Shown one piece after another: positions 15,912 to 29,214 of a DNA stretch of 64,000 nt. Source of the DNA: Marinomonas primoryensis. Lineage in GTDB: Bacteria; Pseudomonadota; Gammaproteobacteria; Pseudomonadales; Marinomonadaceae. Numbering within the stretch: position 1 is the first letter of the stretch; each line of letters starts with the position of its first letter. The position numbers and the translations under genes were made by a program. Where the stretch lies: positions 124,001 to 188,000 of the forward strand of contig NZ_CP054301.1 of the NCBI RefSeq assembly GCF_013372285.1, written 5' to 3'. The notes under the pieces are model-generated. The model was not told the DNA's origin and searched no databases. It saw nothing but the letters and a program-made list of their open reading frames with translations.

Positions 15912-16943
15912 ATGAATAAATTTTCTATGGTACTCGCTGCAACAAGCACGCTTTTAGCGGCAAACAGCTATGCAGCGGATACAGTATCAACACTAGACGC
16001 GGTCAAAGAGCGCGGCTATGTAAATTGTGTTATTGGCAACTCATTTCCAGGGTTTTACAGCTTAAACAAAGCGGGTGAATGGCAGGGAATGGACATTGAT
16101 ATATGTCGAGGCGTGGCGTCGGCTGTGTTTGGCGACGCTTCTAAAGTGAAATTTTTGCCGGTTCAATGGGCTCAAAGTTTTACTTCGATTAAAAGTGGTA
16201 AGGGTGACATTTTATCAAAAGGTATGACGTGGACGCTTTCGCGTGATGCCGCGCAAGGACTGGATTTTTTAGATACCTATTTTTACGATGGCCAAGGTTT
16301 TATGGTACGTAAAGATTTGGGCGTGAAGTCGGTAAAAGAACTTAAGGGTGCCACGGTTTGTGTACTGACCGGAACATCCAGTGAGCTAAACATCGCCGAT
16401 TACAGTCGGGCGCACAATTTAGACATCAAAACCGTGGTATTCGACGATTCCTCAGTTCGTAATACGGCCTTTTTTAATAAAAACTGTGACGCGCTAACCA
16501 ATGACAAATCTGGTTTGGCCGCTCAGCGTTCTGCTGCTCCGAATCCAGATGACTATATGGTTCTGCCTGAAACGATTTCTAAAGAAGCCTTATCTTTTGC
16601 GGTAAAACAAAACGACAGCGAATGGGCGAATGTTGTGAAATGGACATTTGCAGCCATGGTCGCAGCAGAAGAGTTTGGTGTGAATTCTAAGAATGTAGAA
16701 ACAATGCGTGCTGAAACTCAAAGCCCTGTCGTAAGACGCTTATTGGGTACCGAAGGGGATTTGCATACAGGATTAGGTTTGCCTCAGGATTGGGCGTACC
16801 AAGTGATTAAAAACGTAGGAAATTACGGTGAAATATACGAGCGCAACGTAGGACCAAACAGTGTGTTGGGTATTGATCGAGAAGGCACGCTAAATGCGTT
16901 ATGGAAAGATGGCGGCATGATGTACGCCAAATCTTTCCGCTAG
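15912..16943 (+). CDS. aapJ: general L-amino acid ABC importer, periplasmic binding protein
   Basis: 343 residues. A signal peptide ends near NSYAA|DTVST. The mature protein matches AapJ/BztA: ERGYVNCVIGNSFPGF, WQGMDIDICRGVASAVFGD and KSGKGDILSKGMTWTLSRD, then the conserved C-terminal GLPQDWAYQVIKNVGNYGEIYERNVG in two blocks. AapJ binds many L-amino acids and hands them to AapQM. AAAAGGAACG precedes the ATG. A strong hairpin follows the stop, separating it from the permease genes. Confidence 0.92.
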   Translation: MNKFSMVLAATSTLLAANSYAADTVSTLDAVKERGYVNCVIGNSFPGFYSLNKAGEWQGMDIDICRGVASAVFGDASKVKFLPVQWAQSFTSIKSGKGDILSKGMTWTLSRDAAQGLDFLDTYFYDGQGFMVRKDLGVKSVKELKGATVCVLTGTSSELNIADYSRAHNLDIKTVVFDDSSVRNTAFFNKNCDALTNDKSGLAAQRSAAPNPDDYMVLPETISKEALSFAVKQNDSEWANVVKWTFAAMVAAEEFGVNSKNVETMRAETQSPVVRRLLGTEGDLHTGLGLPQDWAYQVIKNVGNYGEIYERNVGPNSVLGIDREGTLNALWKDGGMMYAKSFR

Positions 16944-16952
16944 TAATGATAG

Positions 16953-16980
16953 AGACAGGTTGATGCAAATCAACCTGTCT
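16953..16980 (+). terminator. strong intercistronic hairpin after aapJ
   Basis: AGACAGGTTGA (16953-16963) and TCAACCTGTCT (16970-16980) form a perfect 11-bp stem with a TGCAAA loop, followed by TTTACTTTGATTTTTT. It probably terminates part of the transcription or protects the aapJ mRNA, so that binding protein exceeds permease. Confidence 0.8.
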
Positions 16981-17016
16981 TTACTTTGATTTTTTATCTT
17001 CTTTCGGTACATAGAT

Positions 17017-18249
17017 ATGACTCAGCCCTCTGTATCCAAACCGTCAAAAAATACACCTAAGCAAACGAATTTATTTTTGTCCCTGATAGAAAAGAACAGG
17101 TTATTGCTTAACGATGACTCATATCGAGCGGTGGTTTTACAAGCGGTTGTCCTCGCGGCTGTTTTGTTTGGTTTGTGGTTCTTGTTTTCCAATGCCAGTG
17201 AAAACCTCAACCGACTTGGTATGACGTTTGGTTTTGATTTTTTGCAAGTTACCGCTGGTTTTAATATTAGCTGGAGCTTAATTCCTTACGATTCCAGTAT
17301 GAGTTATTGGCGAGTGTTTTTCGTTGGTATTGTTAATACGCTTATATTGTCTTTTTGCGTGATTGTGGTCGGTACCATCATAGGGACGGCGGTAGGGATC
17401 TTAAGGTTATCAGCGAACCCATTGGTTTCTCAACTGGCTCGTTGGTACGTAGAAATTGTGCGTAACGTGCCATTATTAATCCAAATTATTTTTTGGTTTA
17501 CGGTGGTTTTTTCTACTTTGCCAGCCCCACGCCAAAGCTACCATTTGGGCGAATGGCTCGTTCTTAATAATCGTGGACTTTATGTTATTTCATTGGAAAG
17601 TGCCTTTTCATGGGGATGGATTTTCGCTCTGATTGGTGCTTTAGGTGCCGCGATTTATGGTCTTTTCCGCTGGTCCAAACCGTATTACAAGGTGTCTGGT
17701 TCTCGTTCTGCAGGTTTTTATATCGGCTTAGTCTTCTGGGCTGTTGCTGCTTGCTGGGCCGTTTGGTTTATTTCCCATTCCTTGTCTTTGTCTATTCCGA
17801 CGTTACAGGGATTCAATTTTAGCGGCGGTGCGTTTCTCCCCGCCTCTTTTGGTGCTGCGTTTGTCGCCATGACAGTGTATCGATCGGCGGCCATTGCCGA
17901 AACGGTTCGTGCGGGAATGCAATCCATTGATCGGGGTCAGTCTGAGGCGGCGTTTACCATTGGTTTTTCGCGTGTTCAGTCATTGCGCTTGATTCTGATT
18001 CCTCAGGCAATCCGTTCCATTATTCCTCCGATGACCAATTCTTGGTTAGCCGCCACAAAAGATTCGTCGTTGGCGGTCGCCATTGGCTTTCCTGAGCTGG
18101 TTTCTGTCTTTATGCAGACCTCGATGAATCAAACCGGCCGGGCGATCGAAATTATCTTCATGGTCATGGGGTTTTATATATTCATCAGCTTGCTGATCTC
18201 TTACTTGCTCAACAAGTTCAACGACAGTGTGCAATATAAGGTGCGATAA
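17017..18249 (+). CDS. aapQ: general L-amino acid ABC importer permease AapQ
   Basis: 410 residues, the large permease size typical of Aap/Bzt systems. The N-terminal cytoplasmic part is followed by a first helix near residues 45-65, a long periplasmic loop, and a C-terminal HisMQ-like core. The core has RNVPLLIQIIFW and the EAA-type loop GQSEAAFTIGFSRVQSLRLILIPQA in two blocks. It forms the channel with AapM. The stop codon is directly followed by the aapM start. Confidence 0.92.
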   Translation: MTQPSVSKPSKNTPKQTNLFLSLIEKNRLLLNDDSYRAVVLQAVVLAAVLFGLWFLFSNASENLNRLGMTFGFDFLQVTAGFNISWSLIPYDSSMSYWRVFFVGIVNTLILSFCVIVVGTIIGTAVGILRLSANPLVSQLARWYVEIVRNVPLLIQIIFWFTVVFSTLPAPRQSYHLGEWLVLNNRGLYVISLESAFSWGWIFALIGALGAAIYGLFRWSKPYYKVSGSRSAGFYIGLVFWAVAACWAVWFISHSLSLSIPTLQGFNFSGGAFLPASFGAAFVAMTVYRSAAIAETVRAGMQSIDRGQSEAAFTIGFSRVQSLRLILIPQAIRSIIPPMTNSWLAATKDSSLAVAIGFPELVSVFMQTSMNQTGRAIEIIFMVMGFYIFISLLISYLLNKFNDSVQYKVR

Positions 18250-19608
18250 ATGGACGATTTGAATGTGAACAATGAACCTGCTTTGAAGCAATTCGTACCA
18301 ACACCATCACGTCCTCCTCGTAAGAGTGAAAGAGGAATTATCGGTGCGATTCGTCATCGTTGTTTTAATAGTATTGGCAACAGTTTATTGACCTTGTGTG
18401 TTGCGGTTGTGTTGTTTTATTTATTGAAATACATCTTGGATTGGGCGGTTTTTAATGCTGTTTTTATCGCCGATAATCGTCGTCAATGTATGGATATCAG
18501 CCCAGATGGTGCGTGTTGGGCAGGTGTTATCAGTTGGTTTAACGGTTTGATCTATGGCCGTTTTCCACTGGAAGAACAATGGCGAGTCAACAGCGGCGTG
18601 TTGCTTGGTCTGGCGTGGTTATTGCCGCTGATGTCTAAGCGCGTGGCGTTGAGAAACTTTATTTTACTGTCTTGGATCGGCTTATATCCTTTTGTGGGTG
18701 CGTATCTTTTCTTAGGTGGACGTTTTGGTGCTGAGCTGGGGCTGGTTCATGGCACGATGACCTGTTTTGCATTGGCTTTTTTAACCATTATTTACACCAA
18801 CTGGATTTTGTCGGGGCTTGGGAAAAAAGGTCTAAACGAGTTGTTTGTTCCACTGGTGTCGCGTTGGGTACAGCGTCGCATTCATCTGCTTAGTTTTCTG
18901 ACGATCTTGTTATTGGTGGCGTTGTTCATCGCTTTTGGACTCAGCTATGTTGCATTGGAACCGGTTGCGATTGAACGCTGGGGCGGGTTGTTTTTAACCT
19001 TCATTATCGCGGGGTTTGCCATCACGATGGCGATTCCGGTCGGCGTGGTATTGGCGTTGGGTCGTCGTTCTAAACTGCCTGTAATTCATTGGATCTCGAT
19101 GATTATTATCGAGCTGGTTCGGTCTGTTCCTTTAATTACGGTGCTGTTCATGGCGGTGACCTTGTTGCCGATCTTTTTACCGGCGGACATGGAGTTTAAT
19201 AAGCTTACTCAAGTTCTGGTGGCGGTGTGTTTGTTTGCTGGCGCGTACATGGCCGAGAACATTCGCGGCGGCTTGCAGGCGATTCCAAAAGGCCAATACG
19301 AAGCCGCAGCGACGCTCGGTTTAGGGTACTTACATACCATGGTGTTGGTTATTTTGCCTCAGGCTCTAAAAATGATGATTCCCAATATCATGACGTCTTT
19401 TATTAGCTTGCTGAAAGACACCACATTGGTTTCGATTATTGGTTTATTCGACATCATGTTGATGGCGCGAAACATTGCGAATGACAAGGATTGGGTGGGA
19501 TTGCATACGGAGCCCTTGGTGATGATTTCCGTTTTGTTCTTTGTCTTGTGTTACAGCATGTCCCAGTACAGCTTGAATCTTGAAAAACGTCTTAAGGTGG
19601 ATCACTAA
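18250..19608 (+). CDS. aapM: general L-amino acid ABC importer permease AapM
   Basis: 452 residues with a polar N terminus, several helices and the C-terminal HisMQ permease domain: [18 protein letters not shown] and [25 protein letters not shown] in blocks. It pairs with AapQ. The ATG follows the aapQ stop with no gap, and its own TAA shares one base with the aapP ATG, so aapQMP are translationally coupled. Confidence 0.92.
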
Positions 19609-20378
19609 TGACACTGCCATCGGCAAATTTAGCTAAGAAAACCGTGACCAATACGGCGATAAAAATTGAGAACTTGAATAAATGGTATGGCGATCATCAT
19701 GTTTTAAAAGATGTGTCATTAGATATTTTTGAAGGCGAAATTATGGTGATCTGCGGACCTTCTGGGTCAGGCAAGTCGACCTTAATTCGCTCTTTAAACC
19801 ATCTTGAAGAATACCAAGAAGGTGTTGTGTCGGTTTTTGATCAGCCGCTTTCTCGGGATAGCCAGAGTCATAAAGTGATACACCAAACCATGGGCATGGT
19901 GTTTCAGAATTTTAACCTTTTTCCTCACCTTACCGTCTTACAAAACTGCGCTTTGGGGTTGATGTGGTTGCGTAAAATGTCGGAAAGAGAGGCTGAAAAG
20001 AGAGTGATGGGCCTATTGGATCGTGTTGGCATCGCCAATTTAGCGTCGCGTTATCCGGGGCAACTATCGGGAGGCCAGCAACAACGCGTTGCGATTTCTA
20101 GGTCTCTCGCGATGGAACCCAAAATTATGCTGTTTGATGAACCAACCTCCGCTCTGGATCCGGAAATGGTCAAAGAGGTCTTGGATGTGATGGTTGATTT
20201 AGCCAAAACCGGTATGACCATGGTGTGCGTTACCCATGAGATGGAGTTTGCACGACAAGTTGCCGATCGAGTGGTGTTTATGACGGATGGTGAAATTGTT
20301 GAAGTCGGTCCGCCAGAGCAAGTATTGGTTCACCCTCAATGGGACAGAACAAAAGAATTTTTACAACACGTGCTCTAA
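19608..20378 (+). CDS. aapP: general L-amino acid ABC importer ATPase AapP
   Basis: 256 residues of the polar-amino-acid ATPase type (GlnQ/HisP). Walker A is GPSGSGKST, the Q-loop is [14 protein letters not shown], the signature is [13 protein letters not shown], Walker B is [14 protein letters not shown] and the switch His is in [15 protein letters not shown]. There is no C-terminal TOBE extension. It energises AapQM on the cytoplasmic face. One base overlaps the aapM stop. Confidence 0.93.
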
Positions 20379-20425
20379 GTTAACGAGCGCGTACACCTCC
20401 CTTATTTTTATGGAATGAAATCGAT

Positions 20426-21736
20426 ATGTTGGCAAAAAACAGATCGACGTATAGCAACATGCCTTATTGGCTGGCGGATACGTCTTTGGCGAGCAAAATT
20501 CACTCTAATGCCCGGTTTGAAATCCCACAAAAAGTGGATGTAGTGATTGTTGGCGGTGGGTTTACCGGAATCTCTGCGTCCATTACCTTAGCTCGCGCGG
20601 GTCTAAAAGTGGTTGTGCTTGAGGGTGGTCGTTTGGGGGAAGGAGCCAGTTGTCGAAATGGTGGGTTACTTGGCCCAAGTTTCAGCAAATTGGGCGTAGA
20701 AGGACTGGAGCGCCAATACGGTCGTGACAGTGTTCACTCAACGATAAAAGAGAGTTTGGTGGCGTTTAATTGGCTGGTGGACTTCATCAAAGAAGAACAG
20801 ATCGATTGTGATTTGTCCTTATGCGGCCGATTTCGTGGCGCCAGTCATCCTAGCCATTACGCTGACTTAATCGAGCAAGCGGAAGCGCTGGCGAAGGTGG
20901 TCGATTTTCCTGCGATTGCGGTGAGTCGTCAGGATCAATTCCAAGAAGTTGGCTCAAATGCCTATTATGGTGGCGTTGTGTATCCTACGGATGGCACGTT
21001 ACAACCAGCGAAACTGCATCGTGGGCTTTGCCAAATCGCCCAACAAGCGGGCGTATTAATGCTAGAACACACCATGGTTCGAGGCGTTACTAAGCAAGGG
21101 AATCACCACCAAGTACAATTTGATGGCGGCATGATCAACGCAGATCAAGTGATTATTGCCACGAATGGCTACACGGGAAACGAATTTGGCAAATTCAAAC
21201 GTCGTGTCATTCCTATTCGCTCCGCGATGATCGCAACAGAAGAACTGCCTGAGTCACTCGTTCGCTCCGTCAGTCCGAAATTACGCGCCCATGGCGGCAC
21301 TGAACGATTGGTGGCGTATTATCGACCTTCGCCAGATGGTAAACGCATTTTGTTTGGCGGCCGAGCATTTGGTAAAGGTGATCAACCTCAGTTGTATTCG
21401 AAATATTTACAGGACTTTATGATCCGTACGTTTCCTCAGCTACAGGAAGCGAAAATTGATTATGCGTGGTCGGGTTATGTGGCGTACACCTTTGACCATG
21501 TGCCGCACATTGGCAAAATGGACAATATGCACTACGCCATGGGCTATTGCGGGTCAGGCGTAGGACGAGCCAATTATTTTGGTCGAAAAATCGCTCAACA
21601 GGCGCTTAACCTCACCGAAGGGAAAACATCGTTTGATGATTTTCCTTTCAAAACGCGCCCGTTATACACCGGAAAACCTTGGTTTCTGCCCGCCATTATG
21701 AAATGGCATGACTTCGCAGATCGACGCGGATGGTAA
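20426..21736 (+). CDS. FAD-dependent amine/amino-acid oxidoreductase (DAO family, PuuB/OrdL-like)
   Basis: 436 residues. The Rossmann FAD motif is VVIVGGGFTGISASITLARAG near residue 37 in outline (GxGxxG type), followed by GASCRNGG, which in the DAO family lies near the flavin. The C-terminal YAWSGYVAYTFDHVPHIG and GYCGSGVGRANYFG blocks match the gamma-glutamylputrescine oxidase/OrdL group. It probably oxidises an imported amino acid or amine. It lies 47 bp after aapP and is likely the catabolic end of the same operon. Confidence 0.85.
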   Translation: MLAKNRSTYSNMPYWLADTSLASKIHSNARFEIPQKVDVVIVGGGFTGISASITLARAGLKVVVLEGGRLGEGASCRNGGLLGPSFSKLGVEGLERQYGRDSVHSTIKESLVAFNWLVDFIKEEQIDCDLSLCGRFRGASHPSHYADLIEQAEALAKVVDFPAIAVSRQDQFQEVGSNAYYGGVVYPTDGTLQPAKLHRGLCQIAQQAGVLMLEHTMVRGVTKQGNHHQVQFDGGMINADQVIIATNGYTGNEFGKFKRRVIPIRSAMIATEELPESLVRSVSPKLRAHGGTERLVAYYRPSPDGKRILFGGRAFGKGDQPQLYSKYLQDFMIRTFPQLQEAKIDYAWSGYVAYTFDHVPHIGKMDNMHYAMGYCGSGVGRANYFGRKIAQQALNLTEGKTSFDDFPFKTRPLYTGKPWFLPAIMKWHDFADRRGW

Positions 21737-22240: not shown

Positions 22241-22276
22241 CTGTAACATATCTGTCATCTCGATGTTTTCTAGTAT
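22241..22276 (+). promoter_or_regulatory. PHO box and -10 element for the phosphoryl-transfer operon
   Basis: CTGTAACATATCTGTCAT (22241-22258) matches the E. coli-type PHO box CTGTCATAWAWCTGTCAY at 16 of 18 positions, including both CTGT direct-repeat cores. TAGTAT at 22271-22276 lies 12 bp downstream, close to the spacing seen in PhoB-activated promoters where the box replaces the -35. The first ATG is 41 bp further on. Control by phosphate starvation is inferred. Confidence 0.7.
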
Positions 22277-22316
22277 CTGTATAGTCTGAAGTAATGTATT
22301 TAAGGTGAACCTATTT

Positions 22317-23975
22317 ATGCCTTCAAACCCCGTTTTATTGACGCTTCAAGAGCATGTATATTTTCTCTTGAATGAAGTCGAAACACACTGCCATATTGTA
22401 GAACTTTTTTTCACATCAGGTGCTACCGGATTGCTGCCCAATATTCGTGGTCGACGTGGCTATGTTCAAGCGCTGCGTGAGAAAGCAGACATTGAAACCG
22501 CTCGCTTATTAGAGCGCCGTAAAGTCAATACAACCTTTCACGCCCAAGTTAGCGGCATGCATTCTTTAGTGATCGCGCTTGAGATGTTGACCAAGCATTG
22601 CTTTGATTGCGTGCGTGAAGGGACGTTAAGCGCGCCCTATGAACACCCTGCAGGCCAAGATTGTTGTAAATTGGCCAAGCGTATACGACGCGCTTTACGC
22701 CTTGTTAAAGTCGGTGTGGCGGATAACCGACGTCGCACGGGCATCAAATTGGGCCGACGCACTCATAAGCTGCTGGCCAGTTACAACGAGCTGCAAGCTC
22801 AGACATTACAAGCGAAATTAACGCTGAGCGATGAGCAGTTACAAGCGGCGATTTTAAGCAATGTCAGTTTGAAACGATTGATTGAACAATTAAGTGTGGT
22901 CGCGGAAGCCTTGATTAAAGCGGATCTTGGTCAAGTGGCGACCTTGCAGAATTACCCTCATTTATTGGACAGTGCATCCAACCTTAACTACAACTTGAAA
23001 GATCTAAAAGTCAGGCGCCTAGCATTAACTCGGTCTGGCAGCGCGATTGCGGCGATCTCGCATAAAAGCGAGTCTGGAAAGAATGTGCTCGCGGTCTACA
23101 AAGAGGGAGATCGCATCAAAATTGACGAGGAAGTGGCGGGTGTGAATCATTGGCGCACTATCGACCCTCGGCTTGCGCCCAGCGTTCTTTCTCAAACAGG
23201 GAGGCTGAATAATGGCGAAGAGAATGAGCAATCGTCTTTGTTGATCGAGCATATTCCGGGCAAAACATTAGAGAAACTGTTGCTTGATGGGGATAAAGAC
23301 GGCGCTCAGGCCGCGCTTAATATTTTGTTTAAAACACTCAATAAGACATGGAAAACCACGCTAACGCCAGAATCTTGCTCGGCAAAGTTTATGCTTCAGC
23401 TGCAAAAACGGATTGGCGACAGTCGCAGGGTTCATCCTGAGTTTTTTAAAGATGAAGAACGGATTTGTGGTTATGTGAGTGCCAGTTTTGATGAATTGGT
23501 TGAAAGGGTTGCCATACAAGAAACGCAATGGCGCGCGCCCTTTTCAGTGCTGACTCATGGAGACTTTAACGTTGATAACCTGATCTATGACGATGTTGAA
23601 CAGCGTATTTATTTTATCGATCTGCATCGCGCGTCTTACTTTGATTATGTGCAGGATTTGTCGGTGTTAATGGTGTCTATCTATCGTTTGCAAGTGCTCA
23701 GTGGCGTCACTCGAAAACAGATGATGGACAGTGCCAAAGCGGTTTATCACTTTGGGCGACGCTTCGCTAATCGACAACAAGATGAGACATTTGAAGTACG
23801 GCTGGCCGCAGGTTTAGCGCGTTCATTTGCCACCTCCACGCGTTTTATTTTTGATAAAAAACTGGCGTCTCGTATGCATTTACGCGCTCGATATTTGCTG
23901 GAACGTTTAGCGAAACTGACGCCGGAACAAGCTCAGACATTCACCTTACCATTGAGAGAACTTTATGTTGAATAA
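22317..23975 (+). CDS. PhoU-like helical domain fused to an aminoglycoside-phosphotransferase-like kinase
   Basis: 552 residues from ATG 22317 (AAGGTG 10 nt upstream; GTG 22305 is less likely). Residues 1-240 are all-helical with two similar halves, and segments such as SLVIALEMLTKHCFDCV and LKRLIEQLSVVAEALIKA look like the two repeats of PhoU. Residues 250-552 form an APH/choline-kinase fold: HGDFNVDN supplies catalytic Asp416 and Asn421, and IDLHRA supplies metal ligand Asp435. The glycine-rich ATP loop is not clear. It heads a six-gene operon with a PHO box and overlaps the ATP-grasp gene by 11 bp. The substrate is unknown; the PhoU resemblance is by eye. Confidence 0.75.
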   Translation: MPSNPVLLTLQEHVYFLLNEVETHCHIVELFFTSGATGLLPNIRGRRGYVQALREKADIETARLLERRKVNTTFHAQVSGMHSLVIALEMLTKHCFDCVREGTLSAPYEHPAGQDCCKLAKRIRRALRLVKVGVADNRRRTGIKLGRRTHKLLASYNELQAQTLQAKLTLSDEQLQAAILSNVSLKRLIEQLSVVAEALIKADLGQVATLQNYPHLLDSASNLNYNLKDLKVRRLALTRSGSAIAAISHKSESGKNVLAVYKEGDRIKIDEEVAGVNHWRTIDPRLAPSVLSQTGRLNNGEENEQSSLLIEHIPGKTLEKLLLDGDKDGAQAALNILFKTLNKTWKTTLTPESCSAKFMLQLQKRIGDSRRVHPEFFKDEERICGYVSASFDELVERVAIQETQWRAPFSVLTHGDFNVDNLIYDDVEQRIYFIDLHRASYFDYVQDLSVLMVSIYRLQVLSGVTRKQMMDSAKAVYHFGRRFANRQQDETFEVRLAAGLARSFATSTRFIFDKKLASRMHLRARYLLERLAKLTPEQAQTFTLPLRELYVE

Positions 23976-24861
23976 GCCAAAAATCGGGGTCATTGGTATC
24001 CCTGGGAAATGGTCTACGGAAGTGTTGGCCGATCGATTAGAAGAGCGCACGGGATTTCGTGCGGTGATCGACATGAATCAGGTCGAATTGCGTTTAGACA
24101 CTCAGCAACTAATGTATCAAGACCTCGACTTAATGACACTGGACGGTTTGATTATTAAAAAGATCAGTGAAGTCTATTCGCCTGCCACAGAAGATCGCAT
24201 CCACATGCTGTCTTATGCGGAGCGTGCTGGCGTGAAAATGTTCAGCCCAACGCAGAGTGTTGGTAACTTGGTGAATCGATTGAGCGGCACATTGGCGTTG
24301 CAGCAAGGCCATATTCCGATGCCAAAGACACGCGTCACCGAAAGCGCAGAGCAAGCGTTTACGACGGTGCGAGAATTTGGCTCAGCGATTTTGAAACCGC
24401 TGTATTCCACCAAAGCACGCGGCATGATTATGCTGACCGAAGACGACAGCGACGAATTTGTTCGCAACGCATTGGAAACGTATCGCCAGAGTCAGACTAT
24501 TTATTACATTCAGCAAACCGTGAAACTGGATGGTCGTGATCTGGGTATGGTGTTTGTGGGTGGTGAATACCTTTGTACTTATGCCCGTGTTGGCAACAAA
24601 GACTCTTGGAATACCACGATTAACAGTGGTGGAAAATATGAATTGTTTGAGCCAGATGCGGCACTGATTGAACTGGGTCGTCGAGCGCAATCTTGTTATG
24701 ACTTGAGCTTCACTACCGTCGATATTGCCTTGACGGATCAAGGTCCAGTCGTGTTTGAAGTGTCGGCATTCGGTGGTTTTAAAGGCGCGTTAGAAGGGTG
24801 TAATATCGACGCGGCCAGTGTGTACGCCGACTATATTTTGAAGGAGATCACCAAACCATGA
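23965..24861 (+). CDS. ATP-grasp enzyme of the GAK-type cassette
   Basis: 298 residues with an ATP-grasp fold related to RimK/glutathione synthetase. The ATP-lid region KPLYSTKARGMIML lies near residues 147-160, GRDLGMVFVGG is the central strand, and the C-terminal metal site reads FEVSAFGGFKG (264-274), where the usual Asn of ExN is Ser. Enzymes of this fold join a carboxylate to an amine or thiol via an acyl phosphate. The sequence resembles the family named 'GAK system ATP-grasp enzyme' (from memory of family names). It overlaps both neighbours (11 bp and 4 bp), so it is made together with a kinase. Confidence 0.8.
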   Translation: MLNKPKIGVIGIPGKWSTEVLADRLEERTGFRAVIDMNQVELRLDTQQLMYQDLDLMTLDGLIIKKISEVYSPATEDRIHMLSYAERAGVKMFSPTQSVGNLVNRLSGTLALQQGHIPMPKTRVTESAEQAFTTVREFGSAILKPLYSTKARGMIMLTEDDSDEFVRNALETYRQSQTIYYIQQTVKLDGRDLGMVFVGGEYLCTYARVGNKDSWNTTINSGGKYELFEPDAALIELGRRAQSCYDLSFTTVDIALTDQGPVVFEVSAFGGFKGALEGCNIDAASVYADYILKEITKP

Positions 24862-25949
24862 TTAAAACATTATTGAACCTATCCCATGTGGATGAAGGGC
24901 TCACCCATTGCGTTCATGATATCCGACTGACATTTGCTGAGTTGTCTATCACAGTGCATTCCAATGAAGCCATGTTACTCGCTGGCTTGGCCGATTATTA
25001 TCGTAGTTATTTAAAAACAAATACGAGTGTGACGTCGTCGTTGAACTTGTATGTCATAGAGCAAAGCGCCGTTGGTGATGAACTGGATTGGTTAGAAGTG
25101 CCTAGAGAAGCGGGCAAACAAGGCCGAAAAGAAGGTTTTCTTGATGTAGCGGATGGCCGTTGGATTAAAAAATTCAAAACGGGCATGGCCTTTTTACAAC
25201 GGACAGAAAAAGCCATAGCAGTGGGCCCTTGCGCGGCCAATTTAGCGCAAATTATTAACTTTATTAATAACCAATTCCTTAACCATTACTTGCGCCAAGG
25301 TTTTACTTTAGGTCATGCGTCTGGGTTTAGTGTAAAGGGTGAAGTAACAGCTATTGCAGCAGGCTCTGGTGGCGGTAAATCCACGCTAATGCTGCGTTGT
25401 CTCGAAAATACAGAACGTGATTTTCTCACCAATGATCGTATTTTGCTGAAAAAAACCGCACATGGAACGTCCGCGATTGGCTTGGCAAAACTGCCTCGGG
25501 TAAACCCTGGTACCTTGCTGCATTCCGATCGTTTGCGTCACATTCTGCCGGAATCTCGACAAGACGTATTATGCCAAATACCTCGAAATGAACTATGGTC
25601 ATTAGAGGAGAAGTACGATGTACAGATCGAAGACAATTATGGTGAAAACCGTGTGCAGTTAGCGGGTAATTTGGCTCGCCTGATTATGCTTGATTGGTCA
25701 TTGGACAGCTCGGAACCGACACAAATAGAACGAGTCAATTTATTACAACAAGCCGACGTGATAGAAGGACTGCGCAAACGCCCAGGGCCTTTTTATCAAG
25801 ATAAAGACGGTGCTTTTACGGATCTCAATGCCATTGACTCTGTGGCGCACTATGCCAGCGAACTCGAGAATGTGGACGTTTATCGTTTAACGGGAAAAAT
25901 CGATTTTGACCGTGCTTATGATTTGATTGCTACCTTGGATCAACCATGA
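24858..25949 (+). CDS. HprK-related kinase B
   Basis: 363 residues. The C-terminal half has the HPr kinase/phosphorylase-like P-loop AGSGGGKSTL (Lys174), followed by ERDFLTNDRILL, where Asp of TNDR takes the place of the family's Walker-B-like acidic site. The N-terminal 150 residues have no match I recognise. HprK proteins phosphorylate a serine on a partner using ATP or PPi and can also dephosphorylate it; the target here is unknown, since no HPr gene is nearby. ATGA overlap with both neighbours (4 bp each) marks tight coupling with the ATP-grasp and histidine phosphatase genes. Confidence 0.8.
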   Translation: MIKTLLNLSHVDEGLTHCVHDIRLTFAELSITVHSNEAMLLAGLADYYRSYLKTNTSVTSSLNLYVIEQSAVGDELDWLEVPREAGKQGRKEGFLDVADGRWIKKFKTGMAFLQRTEKAIAVGPCAANLAQIINFINNQFLNHYLRQGFTLGHASGFSVKGEVTAIAAGSGGGKSTLMLRCLENTERDFLTNDRILLKKTAHGTSAIGLAKLPRVNPGTLLHSDRLRHILPESRQDVLCQIPRNELWSLEEKYDVQIEDNYGENRVQLAGNLARLIMLDWSLDSSEPTQIERVNLLQQADVIEGLRKRPGPFYQDKDGAFTDLNAIDSVAHYASELENVDVYRLTGKIDFDRAYDLIATLDQP

Positions 25950-26656
25950 TCGCTCGCATCGCGCTGATTCGCCACGGTGCTTACGAACAGTTGAAAAATG
26001 TGCCGAGCGCTTTGCAGCCTTTCCCTCTAACCGAGGAAGGTGAGCAAGAGGTGCGACAACAAGCCCGCACGTTTGGTGAGTGGTTAACGCGCAATGGTCT
26101 GCGACTGGATCCACAAGTGGACTCGTCGACTTTATTGCGAGCGTGGCAGACGGCGATGATTTACATCGAAGAATTACGTGAACATTTTGATAGAGAACCA
26201 CAAGTGGTGTCGTTTCCTACTTTGTGTGAGCGCAGTGTTGGCGCCGTTGCCAACTTGCCTGTAGAAGAAATCGAAAGGGTGTTAGCGCTGGATCCGCGTT
26301 TCTCCACACCGCCAGAAAATTGGAAATCAGACAGCGACTATTGTTTGCCTTTCGATGGTGCCGAGTCATTGCTACAAGCAGGTCAAAGAGTGGCGGATCA
26401 TATTCAAGCCTGGCGATCTCAGCACTCCATATTTGAAGGTAATCATGAAGGCGATGGTCTGGTTAAGTTGTTGGTGGGGCATGGGGCATCGATACGTCAT
26501 GGGGCGTTTCATTTAAATGTCATACAATTTTGCGATATTAAACGGCTAAGTATGTTTTATGGCCATCCCATCGTGTTGGAGTTTTCTAACGATCAGCCAA
26601 TAAAAAAAGGGTTCGGAGAGTGGAAGCAACGTCAAACCCATGATGTACCCGATTAA
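25946..26656 (+). CDS. histidine phosphatase superfamily protein
   Basis: 236 residues starting MIARIALIRHGAYE. The RHG motif (9-11) gives the phosphohistidine residue, His10; LLRAWQTA supplies the second conserved Arg; GHGASIRHG near the C terminus supplies the second catalytic His. The size and motifs fit SixA/phosphoglycerate-mutase-like phosphatases. Within this operon it would remove phosphate from a protein or small molecule, perhaps the product of the HprK-like kinase, but that is inference. It overlaps the kinase gene by 4 bp. Confidence 0.82.
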   Translation: MIARIALIRHGAYEQLKNVPSALQPFPLTEEGEQEVRQQARTFGEWLTRNGLRLDPQVDSSTLLRAWQTAMIYIEELREHFDREPQVVSFPTLCERSVGAVANLPVEEIERVLALDPRFSTPPENWKSDSDYCLPFDGAESLLQAGQRVADHIQAWRSQHSIFEGNHEGDGLVKLLVGHGASIRHGAFHLNVIQFCDIKRLSMFYGHPIVLEFSNDQPIKKGFGEWKQRQTHDVPD

Positions 26657-26709
26657 ATATTCCGAATGTAAAAAGTGATTTGTCATCTAATTTTAAAGGT
26701 AAGCCAAGT

Positions 26710-28035
26710 ATGCAGAGCCCTATTCCCGCTATTATAGATCGTCCTAATCACACGGAGATTATTGCTCGTTTACCGAGTGAATGGACGTCGTGGCCTCGGG
26801 ATGATAGCTCGGTAAACAGTCATGTTTTGGCCACCAATAAAACGCCACCACGCTTTAAAAAGAACAAAATACGTTGGCCAAAGCGGTCCGTGGTATTTAT
26901 TTCCGATCCGCATGCCGATGCATTCGCTTTTGAAGCCTCTTTGATTGCCGCTGGTGTCGCAGAGCGTAAAAAGAAAGCCGGATTAGGCCATCTTACCTTG
27001 ACGAAAAAAGGTCGTCAGGCAGAAATTATTGTCGGTGGTGATTGCTTGGATAAGGGGCCGAGTAACCTTGCATTGCTGCGCAGCGTGAAGCAGCTCTATA
27101 AGCTTAAAGCACGGGTGACGCTACTGGCGGGCAATCACGATTTGCGTTTGTTAATGGGTTTATTGGCGTTGGCGCGTAAAAAAGACGTGGGCAATCAGCA
27201 TTTTTTCGTTCGAATGGGAAAGAAAGTGGTTCCGCTGTTTCGTGAAGTGTTTGACGAATATTTAGCAGACACAAAATGGGACAAAAAAATCCCCGATGAG
27301 GACGCCTGCCGTAAGCTGCTTTTCCCTGGAGACGATTGGTTTAAAGAATTTCCATTTCACGCCGCCGGTTTTTTGACGTCAGAAGGTATCGATCGTGAAG
27401 TGCGAAAAATGGAAACGAAGAATCACAGTTTCGAAAAACATTGTCTGTCTGCCGGCTTAAGTTTGCGGCAGGTGTATGCGACATCGTTGAAATGTCAGCA
27501 GTTGTTTCTGTATAAAAAAGGCGAATTTAACTGGTTTTTCCGCAAGATGGAATTGGTTGCTAAGCGTGGGTCGTTTCTATTTCTTCACGCTGGACTGGAC
27601 GATAGCATGGGGCAAATGTTACTAAAAAGTGGCACAAACTACGCGAACAAAGCGTTTCACCGTAATTTGAAACGTCGCGACTTATTCAGTTTCTACTACA
27701 GTTCTATCGCCAATACGTTTCGTACTAAGTATCGGGACGCTGACCTTCCTTTGACGGCGCGTGGTGTGGAAGCGATTCACAAAGCAGGTATTCATGTGGT
27801 GGTACAAGGTCATATCAATCGTCAACAAGGTCAGCGCATTACCATTAAAAAGGGATTGGTTCATGTGGAGGCGGACATCACGCTGGATTCCCATTCACGA
27901 AAAGTAGAAGGATTAAAACACTACGGTATCGGCGCGACATTAATAGACAAGGACGCAGGTATTGTTGGCCTGAGCTGCGATTATCCAACGGCCAAAGTAA
28001 TGACTGCCCAAGAATTACAAGGAATCTACGAATAA
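26710..28035 (+). CDS. calcineurin-like (PPP type) metallophosphoesterase
   Basis: 441 residues from ATG 26710, which follows AAAGGTAAG; the frame also allows TTG 26680. The metal motifs appear in order: SDPHADAF, GGDCLDKGPSN, LLAGNHDLRL, FLHAGLDD and VVQGHINRQQG. The first motif has DPH where most family members have DxH, so it is intact. The GDCLDKGP form resembles PPP-type protein phosphatases and Ap4A hydrolases. A Lys-rich insertion between motifs 3 and 4 (about 175-285) is unusual. It lies 53 bp after the histidine phosphatase and 5 bp before the amphi-Trp gene. Confidence 0.83.
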   Translation: MQSPIPAIIDRPNHTEIIARLPSEWTSWPRDDSSVNSHVLATNKTPPRFKKNKIRWPKRSVVFISDPHADAFAFEASLIAAGVAERKKKAGLGHLTLTKKGRQAEIIVGGDCLDKGPSNLALLRSVKQLYKLKARVTLLAGNHDLRLLMGLLALARKKDVGNQHFFVRMGKKVVPLFREVFDEYLADTKWDKKIPDEDACRKLLFPGDDWFKEFPFHAAGFLTSEGIDREVRKMETKNHSFEKHCLSAGLSLRQVYATSLKCQQLFLYKKGEFNWFFRKMELVAKRGSFLFLHAGLDDSMGQMLLKSGTNYANKAFHRNLKRRDLFSFYYSSIANTFRTKYRDADLPLTARGVEAIHKAGIHVVVQGHINRQQGQRITIKKGLVHVEADITLDSHSRKVEGLKHYGIGATLIDKDAGIVGLSCDYPTAKVMTAQELQGIYE

Positions 28036-28040
28036 GCATT

Positions 28041-28310
28041 ATGAAATCGAAAACAGAATTTAAATACGAAGCCCTGCTTGATCCAGACGATATTCAAGAT
28101 GTACTAAAAGCGCTTTCTAAGGGACTTTGCAAAGGAAAGCTGGAGTTTAGTGATGAAAAAGAAGGCACATTACAGCTTGATCCAAAAGGGTTGTTGCGGC
28201 TAAAGGTAACCGCGTCGGATGACGAAGACAGCCAGCAGTTTGAAGTTAAAGTGCGCTGGGAGAAACGTCCAAAACGATTGAATAAAACGGCGCCAACGAT
28301 CTCGTCTTGA
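28041..28310 (+). CDS. amphi-Trp domain protein
   Basis: 89 residues with the amphi-Trp pattern: an N-terminal helix region (DDIQDVLKALSKGLCKGKLEF in parts), an LQLDPKGLLRLKV strand pair and a final amphipathic strand FEVKVRWEKRP containing the single, near-invariant Trp. The domain is known as a small partner encoded with HprK-related kinases and ATP-grasp enzymes; its role is unknown, possibly a carrier or substrate of the cassette. It is the last gene of the six-gene run, 5 bp after the metallophosphatase. Confidence 0.8.
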   Translation: MKSKTEFKYEALLDPDDIQDVLKALSKGLCKGKLEFSDEKEGTLQLDPKGLLRLKVTASDDEDSQQFEVKVRWEKRPKRLNKTAPTISS

Positions 28311-28407: not shown

Positions 28408-29214
28408 TTAAATGCCTGTCATTTTGTTGAGTGATTTTTTGAGCCCACTCGCAGACACCAGCAAAGGGTTGCCTTTGAGTAGTCCTTCCCCTTCTAAAAA
28501 GTCGTTGGTTACGCCACCGGCTTCGTCCACCATGATGAGACCTGCTAGGCAGTCCCAAGAGTTGATGTGGGGCTCGTAGTAACCAATCAGGCGACCTGAC
28601 GCCACATAGGCCAGCATGAGCGCGCCAGAGCCATTACGGATGAACATACCGCCTTCACTTAATAACTTTTCGATAAAGTTAACGCAAAGAGAGGATGGGA
28701 TTCTATGAGACGTTCCCACTCCCATCACACCTTCTTGTACGGAATTTACTTTGAGGGTTTCGACTTTTTTGTCGTTCACAAAACAGCCTTTACCCGCGAT
28801 AGCACTAAAAAGTTCGTTGCTGTTTGGATCAAATATCAGACCGCACGCGATTTTGTCGTTCACCATTAGGGCAATCGAAATACACCAAGAGTGCATGCCG
28901 TTGAGAAAACACGCTGTGCCATCGATTGGGTCAATCACCCACAAATACTCGTTGTCACCCTTGGTGGTGCCTTGTTCTTCGCCGAGGAAGCCATCTTGCG
29001 CAAAGTGTTTTTGTAAGCCTTCAATGATGGCAATTTCTACATTACGGTCGGCAATACTTACCACGTCTTGGGGCTCCATTTTGGTTTCAACCACGAGTTT
29101 GTCTCGATTTCGAAAATAATCTAGAGCCTGAGCGCCGGCGACCTTTATCACTTTTTCGGCTTGTTCGAATCGGTCAAGAACCGCTTGATCTACTAAGTTA
29201 TGAGCTAAAAACAT
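28408..29214 (-). CDS. inositol-monophosphatase-family phosphatase
   Basis: 268 residues with all Mg-binding motifs of the IMPase family: GFLGEE (Glu at the first metal), WVIDPIDGTACF (Asp-Asp pair) and NSWDCLAG (third Asp). It hydrolyses a phosphate monoester such as a sugar, inositol or glycerol phosphate in the cytoplasm. It is the last gene behind the AfuABC-like transporter, 15 bp from the ATPase gene, so the likely job is to dephosphorylate the imported compound. A paralogue lies at 51611-52378 with the same motifs. Confidence 0.88.
   Translation of the reverse strand: MFLAHNLVDQAVLDRFEQAEKVIKVAGAQALDYFRNRDKLVVETKMEPQDVVSIADRNVEIAIIEGLQKHFAQDGFLGEEQGTTKGDNEYLWVIDPIDGTACFLNGMHSWCISIALMVNDKIACGLIFDPNSNELFSAIAGKGCFVNDKKVETLKVNSVQEGVMGVGTSHRIPSSLCVNFIEKLLSEGGMFIRNGSGALMLAYVASGRLIGYYEPHINSWDCLAGLIMVDEAGGVTNDFLEGEGLLKGNPLLVSASGLKKSLNKMTGI

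Follow-up and report, generated by a model that had tools for sequence, protein, structure and literature searches.

E/DxxxD is the metal-ligand motif of PhoU proteins (PF01895). PhoR is contacted at its PAS domain by stand-alone PhoU, which has been proposed to act on it as a kinase/phosphatase switch (PMC4423584). Two other described systems are close to the locus considered here: the APH family (PF01636, with the APH(3') models of NCBIfam) and the GAK system of NCBIfam (TIGR04354-TIGR04358), which has been named but is uncharacterised. A literature search confined largely to papers available without subscription returned nothing on the GAK system, on HprK-related kinase B or on the amphi-Trp domain, and no account of a fusion of PhoU to a kinase.

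The gene described here, which we call PhoU-APH, lies in a window (the whole stretch of DNA that was analysed) of 64,000 nucleotides from Marinomonas primoryensis (NCBI RefSeq assembly GCF_013372285.1, contig NZ_CP054301.1, positions 124,001 to 188,000). Its product has the same six-helix, two-repeat fold as PhoU, matched over the whole of PhoU, but it carries a kinase, does not conserve the ExxxD motif, and has no pst or phoR gene adjacent to it or within its cassette. With the APH family it shares the complete nucleotide-loop and catalytic residue set, whereas the PhoU domain and a highly conserved C-terminal helical region (RLAxGLARSFATSTRFI) are additional to that family, and it scores far below the curated cut-offs of the APH resistance genes. 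Of the GAK models, TIGR04356, TIGR04355 and TIGR04354 are matched above their cut-offs in the operon, and the CofD-like TIGR04357 is matched elsewhere in the same genome, unlinked (471.7 bits against a cut-off of 340; G000:C1:3615481-3616572). The search for XXXCH (TIGR04358) gave no match in the genome, nor a match anywhere. NCBIfam has, however, no model for PhoU-APH itself, the best matches being APH resistance models below their cut-offs. We find that PhoU-APH is an unrecognised constant member of the GAK system.

Table 1. Coordinates of the PhoU-APH gene, its predicted domains and motifs, its promoter elements and its operon partners in the window
Feature	Position	Strand	Basis or remark
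Predicted PhoB site (Pho box), three half-sites 11-bp-spaced, CTGTAAC-ATAT-CTGTCAT-CTCG-ATGTTTT(CTAG)	22241..22273	+	
Predicted -10, TATAGT	22280..22285	+	10 bp past last half-site (22263-22269)
PhoU-APH fusion protein, 552 aa	22317..23975	+	ATG 22317, stop ends 23975
PhoU domain, residues 5-205, two three-helix bundles	22329..22931	+	AlphaFold2, Foldseek, profile, Pfam
APH-type kinase domain, residues 230-552	23004..23972	+	Pfam, NCBIfam, profile, structure
Nucleotide-binding loop TRSGSAI (238-244)	23028..23048	+	Conservation
ATP lysine K262, invariant	23100..23102	+	Conservation
Salt-bridge glutamate E272, invariant	23130..23132	+	Conservation
Catalytic loop HGDFNVDN (414-421)	23556..23579	+	Conservation
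Metal-binding IDLHRA (434-439), D435 invariant	23616..23633	+	Conservation
GAK ATP-grasp, RimK/LysX/MptN-like	23965..24861	+	TIGR04356, 453.6 bits (cut-off 300); overlaps fusion-gene end
HprK-related kinase B (HprK_B), P-loop SGGGKST invariant	24858..25949	+	TIGR04355, 296 bits (cut-off 200)
Histidine phosphatase, branch 1	25946..26656	+	RHG and GHGA regions conserved
Calcineurin/ApaH-like metallophosphoesterase	26680..28035	+	Metal motifs conserved
Amphi-Trp domain protein	28041..28310	+	TIGR04354, 58 bits (cut-off 31)

A PhoU-fold domain joined to an APH-type kinase

A sequence-only reading of the gene had proposed that a PhoU-like bundle is joined to an APH-type kinase. The open reading frame proved to be real and the joined arrangement was confirmed. 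The start codon is preceded by AAGGTGA, a Shine-Dalgarno-like sequence, and a GTG 12 bp upstream of the ATG is a possible alternative start. Other proteins of the same architecture, the existence of which had been left to a search, were found, and a full-length fusion is encoded in 13 of 398 genomes. Relatives on contigs of 12 other species (Marinomonas and Neptunomonas) show full-length identities of 62-87%, and distant relatives (23-42% identity) occur in many further Gammaproteobacteria as well as in Alphaproteobacteria. From this family, 23 diverse members with 23-77% identity to the window protein were used for a profile and for scoring conservation. RefSeq labels the fusion only as 'phosphotransferase' or 'aminoglycoside phosphotransferase family protein', and phage records gave no match.

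The N-terminal half had been described as helical, with two repeat-like halves. An AlphaFold2 model built from 13 sequences, of moderate confidence (pLDDT 74.5, falling below 50 at residues 205-243), bears this out, with six long helices in two triplets over about 200 residues (5-34, 37-65 and 73-99; 113-135, 141-169 and 172-201). Foldseek aligned the model with P. aeruginosa PhoU (4q25; target TM 0.82/0.83, 3.0 Å) and with the PhoU structures 2i0m (0.79) and 1t72 (0.77); over this range of target TM (0.77-0.83), superposition on the solved PhoU structures gave 3.0-3.6 Å. The top-ranked Foldseek match to the fusion, mTOR, was discarded (TM 0.12-0.19, rmsd 24.7 Å). When the 23-member profile was compared with the PDB, it matched 4q25 over profile positions 6-223, covering the whole of PhoU (E=5.4e-10), as well as A. 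aeolicus PhoU 1t72 (E=1e-8) and 1xwm (E=4.9e-8), and its next-best matches in the 398 genomes were stand-alone PhoU-sized proteins aligned via positions 5-220. Searched singly, 15 of the 23 family members matched Pfam PhoU (best E=9.8e-14). An assignment originally made by eye is thus supported by structure, profile and Pfam alike, and the predicted N-terminal fold is that of PhoU rather than an unrelated one. Residues 1-231 of the M. primoryensis member searched alone gave no Pfam match, which explains why the PhoU domain has gone unannotated.

The PhoU half has diverged much more strongly than the kinase half. The PhoU signature of the second repeat is recognisable in many family members as HxIEQMGDALLNISEAIIS, and the ExxxD motif of this repeat is kept in few of the 23 and lost in Marinomonas, including the window protein. 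Because the motif is so poorly conserved, phosphate or metal sensing by the PhoU half is not implied, and we file this half as a PhoU-fold domain and not as a functional PhoU. A separate, ordinary phoU is present in the pst operon of the same genome. Elsewhere in that genome, a 545-aa open frame has a single PhoU-type match (G000:C1:211134-211367); we take it to be perhaps a Na/Pi symporter.

The two motifs from which an APH fold had been read in the C-terminal half, HGDFNVDN and IDLHRA, are both present, and the ATP-binding loop, which had not been obvious, could be located. TRSGSAI is an APH(3')-type loop (TxSGxxI in the family), with S240 and G241 invariant and T238 nearly so among the 23 members, and the ATP site is completed by the conserved K262 and E272 (Table 1). 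The H, G, D and N residues of HGDxNxDN are likewise invariant, and the Pfam APH match scores 39.0 bits against a cut-off of 23.2. The loop, K262, E272, HGDxNxDN and D435 are all invariant or nearly so over the 23 members; the C-terminal half is thus a complete APH-type kinase and is expected to be active.

A predicted GAK operon headed by the fusion gene

PhoU-APH heads a predicted six-gene operon in which the five downstream genes overlap or nearly touch and which, by its NCBIfam matches, is the GAK system. The partner enzymes have conserved catalytic motifs. Compared with the PDB, the ATP-grasp profile was closest to RimK, LysX and MptN and related amide ligases, with no inositol kinase among its matches at E≤0.01, and HprK_B gave P-loop-level matches only. 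The small amphi-Trp gene occurs in nearly every cassette; its product has no strictly invariant Ser, Thr, Tyr, Glu or Asp over 12 loci, and its fold prediction (pLDDT 47) was too low in confidence to be used.

PhoU-APH is as constant in the cassette as the GAK members that NCBIfam models. HprK_B was found above its cut-off in 14 of the 398 Pseudomonadota genomes, and the full-length fusion was found in 13 of those 14 and in no others (Fisher 1.7e-23); in the remaining one, the contig is cut so close to HprK_B (match from base 214) that the upstream neighbours are missing. In about 30 loci, drawn from many families of Gamma- and Alphaproteobacteria, the cassette genes are kept together, and the cassette persists despite shuffled gene order (L066, L067) and on alphaproteobacterial plasmids. 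Sequence comparison and structure prediction together establish for PhoU-APH two predicted domains, intact active-site residues and membership of this cassette. Optional in the cassette are genes for a Nudix enzyme and for a SixA-Nudix fusion, as well as the CofD-like gene. The SixA-Nudix gene, which encodes a SixA-type histidine phosphatase with a C-terminal Nudix domain, is recurrent and sits between HprK_B and the histidine phosphatase gene (L061:10989-11954, L076:7167-8141 and L081:7301-8326).

CHAD domains bind polyphosphate (PMC6537752). At five loci from three families (L063, L064, L071, L084 and L085), the cassette is accompanied within several kilobases by a CHAD gene and a ParA-like ATPase gene, in varying order and, in L085, directly upstream of the fusion, which suggests a link to polyphosphate. 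The genome of the window encodes no CHAD protein.

A conserved Pho box upstream of the operon in Marinomonas

A predicted PhoB site and a predicted -10 element precede the fusion gene (Table 1). The first 18 bp of the site agree with the published Pho box consensus of E. coli (PMC3465305) at 16 of 18 positions. When the upstream regions of 15 loci were aligned, the half-sites and TATAGT were conserved, with positions T1, A2, A4, G5 and T6 of the latter invariant; further upstream, beyond the box, the DNA was unalignable. A box with at least 15 of 18 matches was present at -72 to -86 in Neptunomonas and in 13 of the 14 Marinomonas loci, M. transparens being the only exception, compared with 3 (~1%) of the 283 regions that precede other ORFs of these loci. 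The plain 14-position consensus gave at least 11 matches in 13 of the 15 loci versus 4 of 287 controls; of these four control matches, two belong to the metallophosphoesterase gene of the same cassette (L004 and L006). The Marinomonas sequences are related and hence not independent observations. A lone 12/14 match is not significant in the 4-Mb genome (34 occurrences versus 24 with the reversed control), and therefore only the cross-species conservation of the box carries weight.

The pstS-pstC-pstA-pstB-phoU operon of the same genome has a like box before pstC in the same orientation. No clear Pho box precedes the CofD-like GAK gene, which is unlinked to the operon. A sigma-70 scan found no promoter before the fusion gene, as expected if the Pho box takes the place of the -35 element. 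Most loci of other lineages lack the box, which reaches at least 14 of 18 matches in 2 of 22 loci versus 6 of 789 controls; given this rarity outside Marinomonas and Neptunomonas, Pho control may be a local trait. Judged by this sequence footprinting, control of the operon by PhoB is well supported in Marinomonas and weakly so in other lineages. The link to phosphate, which had been a guess from the PhoU resemblance, has thereby gained independent support from the box conserved ahead of the gene.

In L004 and L006, which are from two Marinomonas species, the histidine phosphatase gene is missing and a 13/14 Pho box lies in the gap before the metallophosphoesterase gene (L004:10736-10753 and L006:10736-10753). 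A box-like site also occurs inside the coding sequence of the histidine phosphatase gene (window 26506-26523), and likewise in other species.

Proposed function and rival readings

The explanation that we judge best overall, and hold to be somewhat probable, is that PhoU-APH heads a PhoB-switched GAK operon and that its PhoU half regulates the kinase in cis. The Marinomonas operon would be turned on by PhoB during phosphate starvation, and the most likely target of the kinase would be a small molecule or a protein encoded by the cassette itself. The PhoU half would tune the kinase in cis according to phosphate status, as stand-alone PhoU switches PhoR in trans, and the histidine phosphatase and the metallophosphoesterase, together in other lineages with the Nudix and SixA-Nudix enzymes, would work in the opposite direction. 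We infer this regulation by the PhoU half, the direction of the chemistry and the class of substrate. The amide-ligase-like ATP-grasp and HprK-like enzymes would be in keeping with a metabolite that is conjugated or a small protein that is modified, and the Nudix, SixA and ApaH-like partners would suit a pyrophosphorylated or nucleotide-like compound. A broader proposal, that GAK is a widespread proteobacterial phosphate-status module centred on a sensor-effector, the PhoU domain controlling a kinase in cis, that yields a new phosphorylated metabolite or protein, is offered tentatively, as a possibility that we would not yet bet on. The PhoU half and the Pho box together provide the first testable hint of GAK function, namely phosphate starvation, and a natural covalent PhoU-kinase fusion would allow the effect of PhoU on a kinase to be measured directly within a single protein.

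The PhoU half could instead be a scaffold only, which dimerises the protein or docks its kinase to another GAK enzyme and plays no part in phosphate sensing. The unconserved ExxxD motif, the greater divergence of this half and the single-sequence Pfam search that missed PhoU in the window member would all be consistent with such a role, but most members retain PhoU similarity, CHAD neighbours recur, and the Pho box is conserved ahead of the gene in Marinomonas; we consider the scaffold rather unlikely. Similarly doubtful in our view is a system for peptide or protein modification, in which a small cassette protein such as amphi-Trp receives amino acids from the RimK-like ATP-grasp enzyme and phosphate from HprK_B and PhoU-APH, and the phosphatases reverse this; it concerns the substrate and is compatible with the best explanation. 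The HprK family consists of protein-serine kinases, amide ligases are what the ATP-grasp profile matches most closely, and the near-constant amphi-Trp gene would provide a small protein as target, whereas the presence of Nudix, SixA-Nudix and ApaH-like enzymes speaks for a nucleotide or pyrophosphate substrate and amphi-Trp offers no strictly invariant Ser, Thr, Tyr, Glu or Asp.

Another reading is that a pyrophosphorylated small molecule, comparable to eukaryotic inositol pyrophosphates (ATP-grasp kinase, histidine phosphatase and Nudix enzyme), or polyphosphate is made and broken down by the cassette. Three kinase or ligase genes beside up to four phosphohydrolase genes, the phosphate-starvation box and the CHAD neighbours would fit it, but the ATP-grasp enzyme resembles RimK/LysX-type structures and no inositol kinase, no polyphosphate kinase was seen in the cassette, and Marinomonas lacks CHAD, so that we regard it as improbable. 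For the ATP-grasp enzyme as an inositol-pyrophosphate kinase, the profile matches, mainly to RimK/LysX-like ligases, led us to leave it as a minor rival. Least credible by far is that PhoU-APH is an aminoglycoside-resistance kinase, as its RefSeq name might suggest. It has APH(3')-type motifs and matches NCBIfam APH_3p with E=3e-11, but the score of 43.3 bits compares with a curated cut-off of 205, and a fixed position in a conserved chromosomal cassette, the fusion to PhoU and the Pho box all speak against resistance, which we rejected because of the score and the genomic context.

Further genes flank the operon in the window. Upstream (15912-21736) lie genes for an amino-acid-type ABC transporter and a DAO-family FAD oxidoreductase, a pair that is not near the cassette in most relatives. 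Downstream, an inositol-monophosphatase-family gene (28408-29214, - strand) is convergent to the operon, as it is in some other Marinomonas; in L009 it lies upstream and is divergent.
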